From Prochlorococcus sp. AG-679-P15 (GTDB lineage Bacteria > Cyanobacteriota > Cyanobacteriia > PCC-6307 > Cyanobiaceae), in assembly GCA_003210695.1 (NCBI GenBank), contig QCUW01000004.1, positions 1 through 49,968 on the forward strand: a stretch of DNA of 49,968 nucleotides, given 5' to 3'. Shown here one piece after another: positions 19,382 through 36,655 of this stretch. Every line of letters begins with the position of its first letter. The stretch's first letter is position 1. Position numbers and translations under genes: made by a program. The notes under the pieces were generated by a model. The model was given only the letters and a program-made list of their open reading frames with translations, was not told where the DNA came from and made no database searches.

Positions 19382-20230
19382 TTAAGCTGCATTCGAAGGA
19401 GTATCTGCTACCTCAAGATTCTCTATAGGTAATTGAGCTAATTCTCCATCAGGAATAATTCTTTTAATCTGTATGGGTCCATAAAGAGATTTTTTTTGTT
19501 TAATTTCAATTTTATTTTCTGATGATAGAAATAATAAAGCCCAAAAGACACCAAGCCTATCTTTATCTAAATCACTTTTTACCACATTCTGCCACTTATT
19601 TACTAAATATTCAAAGTCAGTCCATTGCAAGGCTTTTTCCCATCCATCAAGAAACTTGCCAAGTGCTTTTGTTGTTTCAGGAAGTTTTTCACGATGTGCT
19701 AGAGATTGTACTTTAGAAATTAGAATCTTATCAGAATATTTTTTATTTCTTTTCCTTTTCATAAGCAAAAGATCTTGAGTTTCAATTATTTCAGCAATCG
19801 ACTCAAGTTGACTAACTAGTTCTCCTAATGTTGATGTGCGTTGAATAATGGGTTGAGCTACAGATCTTCTTCTTAAATATTTTTCAGGATATTTTGGGAT
19901 ATCAAATCCCTGATTAATCCACTCTTGGCTATCCAGCTCAAAATCTTCTTCAAAACCTGATATTTCTTCTTGCAAAACTTCAGATTCTAAAACTTGAGCT
20001 TTTAAATTAACTAATACAGAGGCAGCAAAAAATGCTTCGCTTGTCTCATGTAAGTCCTTTTGATATGAAATTTGATCATTTAATGAAAATTTCAAATTCT
20101 GATTAAATTGCTCTAAAAAGCTGTCGATAACACTTATTACATCAATATCCCAAGGATCAAGATCTCCCCTTCCAGCAGCATCCTGAAGAAACTTTATCAA
20201 TAATCTAGGTCCTAATTGTGACCTATCAAT
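19382..20230 (-). CDS. scpA: Segregation and condensation protein A
   Basis: ScpA, the kleisin of the SMC-ScpAB condensin. The N-terminal GRGDLDPWDIDVI motif and the C-terminal winged-helix region (LGVFWALLFL) are clear. The nearest standard start is TTG at 20200, giving 272 residues, but this cuts the first helix (GPRLLIKFLQDA). The frame stays open upstream to stops at 20255-20260 and contains no ATG, GTG or TTG there; only ATT codons (20228-20230 and 20252-20254) could begin a longer product. I give the longer form, with the TTG as the alternative. Either way the gene is intact. Confidence 0.85.
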   Translation of the reverse strand: MDRSQLGPRLLIKFLQDAAGRGDLDPWDIDVISVIDSFLEQFNQNLKFSLNDQISYQKDLHETSEAFFAASVLVNLKAQVLESEVLQEEISGFEEDFELDSQEWINQGFDIPKYPEKYLRRRSVAQPIIQRTSTLGELVSQLESIAEIIETQDLLLMKRKRNKKYSDKILISKVQSLAHREKLPETTKALGKFLDGWEKALQWTDFEYLVNKWQNVVKSDLDKDRLGVFWALLFLSSENKIEIKQKKSLYGPIQIKRIIPDGELAQLPIENLEVADTPSNAA

Positions 20231-34495: not shown

Positions 34496-35908
34496 TTAAG
34501 AATTTAAAACTTGAAGCTTTTGAAGCTGATTTAAATTTTCCATAACATCATGATTTACAGCAGAATGAGCTAAACGAAGAGCACTCACAACAGATAAAGA
34601 CTTACTACTGCCATGACCAATTACGCAAATACCATTTACCCCCAGCAATAATGCTCCACCATGTTCAGCATGATCTAACCTTTTCTTAATCCTTAGTAAA
34701 TTACTTTTTAAAAAAGCAGAACCAACTTTACCCCTTCTTCCTCTTGGTAATTCGGACCTTAAGATATCTAATAAAACGCCTCCAACGGACTCAAGAAATT
34801 TAAGTAATATATTTCCTGTAAAACCGTCGCAAACGACTACATCAAAATTTCCAGACAAAACATCTCTTCCTTCACAATTTCCAGCAAAATTAAAACTTTT
34901 TTCATTGGATAATAATTCAAATGTTTTTAAAGACAAATCGTTACCTTTACATTCTTCTTCCCCAATATTTAATAAACCAATTCGTGGCTTTTGTATTTGT
35001 AAAACATCCTTAGCGTAAACATTACCAAGAAGAGCAAATTGATGTAGATAAGAGGGTTTACAATCTGTATTTGCTCCGACATCTAAAACTAATACAGGTC
35101 GAGTTTGATCTCTAGTTGGAAATAATGCTCCTATTGCAGGACGTTCAATACCTTTCAATCTCCCTATCCTAAATATTGCTGAAGCCATAAGAGCCCCTGA
35201 ATTGCCTGCCGAGTAAACAGCTTTTGCTTTATTCGTTTTAACTAGATCCATAGCAATATTTATACTTGCATCTTTTTTCTTTCTTACTGCTGTTGCTTCC
35301 TCATTCATCCCTATGGGATCCCCACTATCTATTAATTCAAAACGATTGTTCTCAATTTCTTTTTCTAATAAATCTACTAGGCCAACTTTTTCAGCTTCAT
35401 ATCTAACTTTTTCAATTTTTCCTACAAACTTTATATTTATTGGAAATCTAGTAATGGCATCAAGGCATCCCTCCAAAATGGGTATAGGAGCATAATCTCC
35501 TCCCATACCATCAACTGCGATCCAAATCCTTTCAGAATTTAATACCTCTTCTTTATTTATCAAATTATCATTATTTTGTAACCTTTTTAAAGGATCAAAA
35601 ACTAATGGCTGCAAAGTATTTTTTGCAATTGAACTAGCATTTGAAACTACGCTACTTGCAGTGTTAACAACTGATTCAGCACTAGAAACTACATTTTCCG
35701 CTACATTGCCTGCAACATTACTTGCAGTACTTACAACAGAGCCAGCACCAGAAACTACATTTTCCGCTACATTGCCTGCAACATTACTTGCAGTAGTCGC
35801 AGAATTAGCCGCAGAATCAACTATTGAAGTTACAGCAGAATTTCTTTTATACCAAATAACTAATCTTCTTATAGCTCTAGACTTTTTATGAGAAGAATAT
35901 TTTTCCAT
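34496..35908 (-). CDS. plsX: Phosphate acyltransferase PlsX with a repeat-bearing N-terminal extension
   Basis: PlsX makes acyl-phosphate from acyl-ACP for phospholipid synthesis. The conserved enzyme begins at IWIAVDGMGGDYAP, about residue 128, and continues through GDPIGMNEEATAVRKKKDAS (about 204), SAGNSGALMAS, and DVGANTDCKP, complete to the C-terminus. The total is 470 residues against a usual 330-350. The additional N-terminal 127 residues comprise a basic opening (SHKKSRAIRRLVIWYKR), then a Ser/Asn/Ala/Val stretch at about 25-98 with near-identical 22-residue repeats at 39-60 and 61-82 and a degenerate third. The ATG directly follows the rpaB stop with no intervening base. Confidence 0.93.
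   Translation of the reverse strand: MEKYSSHKKSRAIRRLVIWYKRNSAVTSIVDSAANSATTASNVAGNVAENVVSGAGSVVSTASNVAGNVAENVVSSAESVVNTASSVVSNASSIAKNTLQPLVFDPLKRLQNNDNLINKEEVLNSERIWIAVDGMGGDYAPIPILEGCLDAITRFPINIKFVGKIEKVRYEAEKVGLVDLLEKEIENNRFELIDSGDPIGMNEEATAVRKKKDASINIAMDLVKTNKAKAVYSAGNSGALMASAIFRIGRLKGIERPAIGALFPTRDQTRPVLVLDVGANTDCKPSYLHQFALLGNVYAKDVLQIQKPRIGLLNIGEEECKGNDLSLKTFELLSNEKSFNFAGNCEGRDVLSGNFDVVVCDGFTGNILLKFLESVGGVLLDILRSELPRGRRGKVGSAFLKSNLLRIKKRLDHAEHGGALLLGVNGICVIGHGSSKSLSVVSALRLAHSAVNHDVMENLNQLQKLQVLNS
35677..35795 (-). repeat. 66-bp tandem repeat in plsX (22-residue repeat)
   Basis: The segments 35684-35729 and 35750-35795 are identical over 46 bases, and the match extends to 35677 and 35743 with one mismatch. 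The offset is 66 bases, that is 22 codons, so the repeat preserves frame. A weaker third unit lies at 35611-35676. The encoded units have hydrophobic residues spaced 4-4-4-3-4-3, giving six turns in 22 residues, as in the 11/3 helices of membrane-binding proteins. Confidence 0.95.
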
Positions 35909-36655
35909 CTATTTACCATCGAATGGAGATATATCAACTATTCTCTGAAACAAATATCCTGTACCTCTTGCTGTAAGAATCAATTCAGGATTTGCAGGAT
36001 CAGCTTCCAATTTTGATCTTAATCTCGATATATGAACATCCACTACCCTTGTATCTACATGCCTTTCAGGAGTGTAGCCCCAAACCTCTTTTAAAATCTC
36101 TCCTCTACTAAATGGCTCTCCTGATCGACTTACTAAAAGCTCTAAAAGACTAAATTCCATTCCTGTTAATCTGATCCTTTCATCACTTTTAAAGACTTGT
36201 CTTCTATTGGTATCAATTTTAATATCTGTTACTAAAATTAAACCTGAATTAGGCATGCCAGGAAGTTGTTCTTTATCTATTCTTCTTAATACACACCTAA
36301 TTCTAGCTTCTAATTCTTTTGGACTAAATGGTTTAACAACATAATCATCAGCGCCTAATTCTAATCCTGTAATTCTATCTGCCACATCGCCTAAAGCAGT
36401 CAACATAACAATAGGTACATCAGAATCTTTTCTTAATTCTTGACAAACTCCATACCCATCTAATTTTGGCATCATAACATCAAGTACAACTAAATCTGGA
36501 TCGTAATCTTTGAATAATTTTAATGCTTCTTTTCCATCACAAGCAGTGACCACTTTGTAACCAATCATTGAGAGACGAGTTTCGAGAATTCTTCTAATGC
36601 TTGCCTCGTCATCAGCGACCAGAATTGTTTCTTTTGTTTGACTAGATACAGCCAT
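35909..36655 (-). CDS. rpaB: OmpR-type response regulator RpaB
   Basis: RpaB (Ycf27), 248 residues, an essential cyanobacterial regulator paired with the kinase NblS (Hik33), which controls high-light genes and binds HLR1 DNA elements. The receiver domain has DDE at 15-17, phosphoacceptor D59 and K108 (VVKPFSP); the winged-helix domain covers about 135-238 with LTGMEFSLLELL and TRVVDVHISRLRSKLE. The identification rests on its close likeness to known RpaB. The downstream gene plsX abuts its stop. An HLR1-like direct repeat lies 34 bases upstream of its ATG. Confidence 0.95.
   Translation of the reverse strand: MAVSSQTKETILVADDEASIRRILETRLSMIGYKVVTACDGKEALKLFKDYDPDLVVLDVMMPKLDGYGVCQELRKDSDVPIVMLTALGDVADRITGLELGADDYVVKPFSPKELEARIRCVLRRIDKEQLPGMPNSGLILVTDIKIDTNRRQVFKSDERIRLTGMEFSLLELLVSRSGEPFSRGEILKEVWGYTPERHVDTRVVDVHISRLRSKLEADPANPELILTARGTGYLFQRIVDISPFDGK

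Follow-up and report, generated by a model that had tools for sequence, protein, structure and literature searches.

A repeat-built N-terminal arm on PlsX of Prochlorococcus and its family that may have taken over the membrane contact of the enzyme

The plsX locus and its N-terminal arm

The stretch of DNA analysed here, called the window throughout, comprises 49,968 nucleotides of contig QCUW01000004.1 from Prochlorococcus sp. AG-679-P15, a partial genome (1.08 Mb in 68 contigs, 69% complete). It carries plsX, the ATG of which abuts the stop codon of an upstream response-regulator gene with zero bases between them (35906-35911). I take this upstream gene to be rpaB-like, and the genes downstream on the same strand, named by motif, to be fabH-like, fabD-like and plsC-like. 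The features of plsX are as follows.

34496..35908, minus strand: plsX, phosphate acyltransferase, 470 aa (open reading frame with ATG start; PF02504; NF010419)
35816..35881, minus strand: conserved basic-aromatic block SRAIRRLVIWYKRNSAVTSIVD, residues 10-31, net charge +4 (row counts, dN/dS)
35615..35842, minus strand: amphipathic array of variable length, residues 23-98, 76 residues in the window (spectrum, length steps, dN/dS)
35729..35794, minus strand: unit 1 of the array, residues 39-60, TASNVAGNVAENVVSGAGSVVS
35663..35728, minus strand: unit 2 of the array, residues 61-82, TASNVAGNVAENVVSSAESVVN (59/66 bases as in unit 1)
35615..35662, minus strand: degenerate third unit, residues 83-98 (sequence; 2.2 copies by TRF)
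35576..35614, minus strand: near-invariant segment LQPLVFDPLKRLQ, residues 99-111 (dN/dS 0.011, the most constrained part of the arm)
35528..35575, minus strand: variable spacer to the core, residues 112-127, 16 residues in the window (indel control)
34499..35527, minus strand: PlsX enzyme core, residues 128-470 (Pfam and solved-structure alignments)
34715..34741, minus strand: GRRGKVGSA, residues 390-398, equivalent by alignment to B. subtilis PlsX 253-261, with R391 at Leu254

The protein belongs to the PlsX class (PF02504 / TIGR00182), its full-length catalytic core matching above the cut-off. Because the Pfam match (PF02504, FA_synthesis, E 3.4e-104) spans residues 130-457 and solved PlsX chains align with residues 128-459 at most, the core is placed from about residue 128. 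It also exceeds the curated cut-off of NF010419 (PRK13845, putative/long PlsX), scoring 867.5 bits against 729. The best stretch of that match, residues 65-470, takes in much of the arm, so the arm is already within the reach of annotation, although the model description assigns the extension no role. Among the titles listed by literature searches on PlsX, no publication on such an N-terminal arm was found.

Read from the N-terminus, the arm consists of a short variable start, the basic-aromatic block, the array, the near-invariant segment and the variable spacer. The array is made of Val/Ala/Ser/Asn/Gly/Thr repeats, in the window two units of 22 residues and a degenerate third. Units 1 and 2 share 19/22 residues and 59/66 bases, and TRF finds a period of 66 bases at 35653-35795 (2.2 copies, score 237). 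This anatomy is the one given by the first-pass annotation, which was drawn from the window alone: a core from near residue 128 behind a 127-residue arm, a basic opening (now the block at residues 10-31, with its charge of +4) and 22-residue units at 39-60 and 61-82 with a degenerate third were all borne out. An open reading frame of 76 aa on the plus strand (35661-35891) is antisense to the arm and has repeats that mirror those of the arm, which I take to be mechanical. Elsewhere in the window, at 19944-19986, there is a 22-base tandem repeat of two copies (81% match).

Distribution of the arm

PlsX was recovered from 165/200 genomes of the genus (64/66 of those at high completeness), 120/121 of the family and 146/146 of the class, and was read from 358 loci, here called rows: 115 from Prochlorococcus, 113 from the rest of the family (drawn from 112 genomes), and the remaining 130 from elsewhere in the class. 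The 115 Prochlorococcus rows represent 106 distinct proteins, some genomes having entered by two routes. Row L001 is the window again and was skipped, row L204, from the same genome as L120, was kept in the 358-locus and arm counts and left out of the tree and length-difference tests, and two genomes with split plsX genes (G367 and G432) entered as partial rows (L307 and L306).

One of three kinds of arm is present in 226/228 rows of the family, which I take to be Cyanobiaceae, and in 0/130 rows of other cyanobacteria. The first kind, block plus array, accounts for all 115 Prochlorococcus rows and 97 others of the family, the second, block plus a short TGP tail with no array, for seven rows, and the third, a different basic arm (RRRAIRRIRRIRRL) confined to one genus, for seven. 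The two family rows without an arm are a gene cut by a contig end (L308) and a split gene (L309). The absence of the arm from most relatives, raised by the first-pass annotation as a reason to doubt it, is thus not what the aligned family rows reveal. The block itself occurs in 115/115 Prochlorococcus rows and 104/113 other family rows, the nine without it being seven from one genus, L308 and L309. It is absent from 130/130 rows of other families, one of which (L307) is without its N-terminus. An ATG at least 15 residues ahead of the core is found in 6/130 of these other-family rows, at about 30 residues in two of the six. Counted from the first possible start, the arm ranges from 60 to 156 residues over the family and is 127 residues long in the window. 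In the genus with the third kind of arm (rows L168, L197, L200, L203, L205, L311 and L342), the basic arm RRRAIRRIRRIRRLSRQSR lacks both the WY block and the array, and its best 18-mer moment is the highest among the three arm kinds (median 0.51).

In the tree each arm kind groups together and the armless rows form one side of a branch, so a single gain of the arm fits; resolution among the arm kinds is weak. A profile of the arm matched 56/61 family genomes, and every match listed lay at plsX (places compared by eye), so the idea that the same arm is carried by other proteins was dropped. The five genomes missed were three with the different basic arm (G205, G238, G261), one with a short arm (G224) and one in which no plsX was found (G258). 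A second match in the genome of the window (E 0.029) overlaps an open reading frame of 300 aa on the other strand and was taken as chance. Relatives in viral contigs, sought for a deeper alignment, yielded none that were confirmed.

The arm is translated and under selection

A miscalled start is an unlikely source of the arm, because the plsX ATG immediately follows an in-frame stop in 115/115 Prochlorococcus rows (that this stop ends the same upstream gene was seen in the window) and because the next in-frame start codon in the window is TTG 99. Outside Prochlorococcus, arm starts were set mechanically at the first ATG, GTG or TTG. With arrays of equal length compared position by position, the two main array-length classes (1128 and 1081 pairs, overlapping and not independent) gave dN/dS of 0.084 and 0.071 for the array, 0.061 and 0.073 for the basic-aromatic block, and 0.061 and 0.054 for the core. 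The LQP segment LQPLVFDPLKRLQ is at 0.011 in both, below the enzyme core. In two small classes (21 and 10 pairs) the array values were 0.20 and 0.14, against 0.059 for the core.

Could the arm be a cleavable targeting or export peptide? Its basic N-terminus followed by a Ser/Ala/Val-rich stretch does resemble an organelle presequence. However, by eye it has no long hydrophobic stretch of the Sec/Tat type, its most constrained part is its C-terminal end, and PlsX acts on cytosolic acyl-ACP, which leaves this explanation barely credible.

Helical periodicity and array length

In 161/166 distinct arrays the hydrophobicity spectrum has its peak at 90-110 degrees per residue, and in that of the window (residues 23-98) the peak is at 99 degrees. 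The signal at 95-105 degrees exceeds that of shuffles (p <= 0.05) in 85/85 Prochlorococcus arrays and 78/81 others. Shuffles of this kind break the repeats, whereas permuting the unit identically in its three copies (residues 39-98) keeps them and covers the window only; the observed value was then reached in 1/2000 trials. Given this permutation result and the 99 degree peak, the periodicity of the window array is not chance. The array does have a hydrophobic moment, the lack of which the first-pass annotation had named as a ground for refutation, but a low one, about 0.31 in the window with family medians of 0.24-0.30. The arm is thus helical in periodicity and weak in amphipathicity. AlphaFold2, run on the arm alone, predicted one helix at residues 6-116 in its best model, which has a mean pLDDT of 78.1, against 46-61 in the remaining four. 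The full-length prediction (mean pLDDT 48.8, arm helices below 50) was too poor to use. The predicted helix is supportive, not decisive.

With array length counted from the WYKR block up to the L of LxP, there are 20 distinct lengths: 14, 25, 29, 32, 36, 40, 43, 44, 47, 50, 51, 54, 58, 61, 65, 72, 76, 80, 90 and 94 residues. These lengths fall on a helical grid, with a Rayleigh R of 0.81 at 3.6 residues and a scan maximum at 3.65. The length of 14 (L111 and L117) belongs to the short-arm kind and represents 2/166 arrays; without both, R at 3.6 is 0.823. The observed R was reached by 0/20000 uniform draws and 0/20000 free draws of 4a+7b, and by 0/1500 slippage walks with helix-sized steps in each of nine settings, these walks being simple models of a process, slippage, that itself favours unit-sized steps.

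A tree of cores from 200 rows supplied 58 pairs on separate paths with differing array length; the length tests excluded the split and contig-cut genes (L309 and L308). The pairs were chosen greedily, some of them joined by long paths, and one difference may sum several events. In 52/58 the difference is a whole number of alpha-helical turns to within half a residue, for which 27% of integers qualify. A difference of 4 residues was found 24 times, 7 and 18 ten times each, 15 three times, 11, 14 and 36 twice each, and 3, 8, 22, 29 and 51 once each. Differences of 1-3 residues make up 1/58 in the array against 9/11 independent pairs in the control spacer. Row L128, with one of the longest arrays (94 residues), contains three consecutive copies of GNVAESVVSSA, a clear 11-mer array.

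The conserved feature is therefore whole helical turns, and not a 22-residue or an 11/3 unit. The first-pass annotation had read a fixed unit of 22 residues with hydrophobic positions spaced 4-4-4-3-4-3, equal to an 11/3 periodicity. The spacing is there (A2-A6-A10-V14-A17-V21, then the next A2), and 11/3 in particular fell away, the shared period being 3.6-3.65; with the array-length scan peaking at 3.65 residues, I dropped the strict 11/3 reading. Neither does a fixed unit hold, since units are of 18, 22 and 26 residues in Prochlorococcus and of 4, 7 and 11 elsewhere. Because of the turn-sized length steps, the peaks at 90-110 degrees and an array dN/dS near that of the core, the arm is a translated, selected and helix-periodic element. 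The earlier view of it as real, conserved in the family and under coding selection holds, on dN/dS near the core's in the two main length classes and its presence across the family.

These data bear on whether the array is simply a low-complexity tail produced by replication slippage, with little function and with length steps that mirror its repeat units. The units are indeed tandem repeats in the DNA (59/66 bases identical), array lengths vary between close relatives, and the array dN/dS in the two small length classes (0.20 and 0.14) is two to three times that of the core. However, in the two main classes it is near the core's, none of the slippage walks kept to the 3.6-residue grid as well as the cumulative lengths do, unlike units of 4, 7, 11, 18 and 22 residues yield the same period, and an arm is present in 226/228 family rows. 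I consider this reading very improbable.

A helix might also pack against protein, either as a coiled coil between the two arms of a dimer or by docking to PlsY, PlsC, ACP or another membrane partner. Coiled coils tolerate changes of 4, 7, 11 and 18 residues as well, which counts against reading the array indels as the mark of a membrane helix; small Ala, Gly and Ser residues permit close helix packing; and LQPLVFDPLKRLQ, with a dN/dS of 0.011, may mark a specific contact. Against such packing, the window array has few charges (7%) and no Leu core, and an array that ranges over the family from 25 to 94 residues, and from 54 to 90 in near relatives (L082 and L083), would be odd for a fixed partner. 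It would also leave the changes in the core described below unexplained. Protein packing is the main alternative to an exchange of membrane anchors, and an unlikely one.

The membrane peptide of the core

According to PMC6702220, an amphipathic peptide at the tip of a helical stem, residues 253-261, anchors B. subtilis PlsX to the membrane, and the protein is delocalised by L254A and L254D, whereas L254E did not have this effect. In the window the equivalent peptide is GRRGKVGSA. The Leu254 equivalent is Arg in 227/228 family rows; the remaining row, from the genus with the different basic arm, has Tyr. Among other cyanobacteria it is hydrophobic in 122/130 rows (W 47, L 38, I 18, V 11, M 6, A 1, F 1) and polar or Pro in eight (K 4, T 3, P 1); a protein with no arm can therefore have a polar tip. 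A second origin of the arm in these eight rows (L225, L234, L261, L262, L263, L289, L292 and the partial gene L307) was considered and rejected, as in seven of them the starting ATG stands five residues ahead of the core position used, and L307 is partial. Over all nine residues, hydrophobicity and moment are 0.42 and 0.33 in B. subtilis, with medians of 0.37 and 0.37 in armless cyanobacteria (129/130 rows) and of -0.17 and 0.06 in the arm-bearing family. By these values, the amphipathicity of the core membrane peptide is kept in armless cyanobacteria and lost in the arm-bearing family, a point that the first-pass annotation had missed.

Synechocystis lies outside the arm-bearing family, and I take its PlsX to be armless. 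This PlsX has been mapped to the thylakoid membrane (PMC6878006).

An economical reading of the stem-tip data is that the anchor may have moved from core to arm. Alternatively, the array could be helical and the switch to Arg at the tip unrelated to it, serving for example the electrostatic binding of acidic ACP or of anionic lipid. Within the arm-bearing family GRRGK hardly varies and is strongly basic, the eight armless rows are also polar at position 254, and the gain of the arm and the switch are one coincident event only. Indeed, because gain and loss coincide on one branch, the association of arm and tip counts as a single event, and the rows are not independent. Yet B. subtilis has an amphipathic peptide at this place, as do armless cyanobacteria by median, which makes loss of the old tip function the simplest reading and an unrelated switch rather unlikely.

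Likeness to known amphipathic helices

The likeness to B. subtilis PlsX lies in the same enzyme with a peripheral amphipathic helix of weak, tuned hydrophobicity, binding by the window arm being presumed; there (PMC6702220) the anchor is nine residues at the tip of the core stem, with the two copies in the dimer proposed to act together, whereas in the window that peptide is degenerate and the candidate anchor is an N-terminal arm. The array also recalls helices of other proteins. Eukaryotes are the best-known source of repetitive, weakly amphipathic helices like that of Plin4. The window array has a hydrophobic fraction of 0.43, an aromatic fraction of 0, a charged fraction of 0.07 and a local moment of about 0.31. 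In PMC5889406, the same four values are 0.35, 0.002, 0.15 and 0.257 for Plin4 and 0.37, 0.05, 0.05 and 0.48 for the ALPS of GMAP-210 (Table 1), and alpha-synuclein has a moment of 0.30 with 24% charged residues.

In composition and moment, which are what was compared rather than sequence directly, the array resembles perilipin 4 and alpha-synuclein (PMC5889406) in being long and repetitive with nearly no aromatics and a low moment. It departs from their 11-mers in having units of 4, 7, 11, 18 and 22 residues and fewer charges, and in sitting on a bacterial enzyme; instead of 11-residue repeats in register there are varied units with a period of 3.6-3.65. With ALPS (PMC6164224 and PMC5889406) it shares a polar face of small uncharged residues, the array being 50% Ser/Thr/Gly/Asn and 7% charged. 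The polar face of Ser, Thr and Asn with few charges described at first pass is borne out, with Gly as a further member. The GMAP-210 motif has one bulky hydrophobic residue per turn in those sources, whereas the array has Val, Ala and only two Ile, is rich in Asn, unlike the textbook motif, and has a lower moment. The resemblance to packing-sensing helices and 11-residue repeats that had been proposed therefore survives as a composition between those of Plin4 and ALPS, and fails on the 11-residue repeat and on bulky residues. By the features tested, the array is a member of neither class, and would work as they do if it binds lipid.

A possible exchange of membrane anchors

I think it probable, from these comparisons of sequence, that in the family the membrane contact of PlsX has passed to the arm, which would form a long alpha-helix of weak amphipathicity. 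The conserved Arg-rich block with its Trp and Tyr (RRLVIWYKR) would adsorb to anionic membrane lipid, and the array would lie along the bilayer surface with its Val/Ala face, its Ser/Asn/Thr/Gly face turned to water; the weak contacts that it adds would be many, and the more numerous the longer the array. The near-invariant LQPLVFDPLKRLQ would terminate the helix and hand over to the core, whose stem-tip peptide, no longer needed, would have lost its hydrophobic residue and become GRRGKVGSA. PlsX would in this way stay at the membrane, the site at which PlsY consumes the acyl-phosphate that PlsX makes. The putative binding face (V 16, A 15 and I 2 in the window array) has no Leu, Met or aromatic residue, and the array has a low moment; by itself, the array might therefore bind only weakly or fail to bind. 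What I infer, then, is binding of the arm to membrane, the specificity of that binding and a causal link from gain of the arm to loss at the tip, the circumstantial case for binding being stronger now than at first pass.

More tentative, and doubtful when taken together, are two further claims: that a packing-sensing bacterial helix of the ALPS or perilipin 4 type replaces the ancestral membrane sensor of PlsX, the first enzyme of phospholipid synthesis, and that the copy number of the array, in whole turns, tunes membrane affinity to the lipids of each lineage, with acyl-phosphate made at the places and times of packing defects. If the exchange of anchors is right, the changes at the stem tip and in the arm would be two separable elements, and the indel record would serve as an assay-free readout of helical structure under selection. 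An essential lipid enzyme of highly abundant ocean phototrophs would then have swapped a nine-residue anchor for a helix built of repeats.
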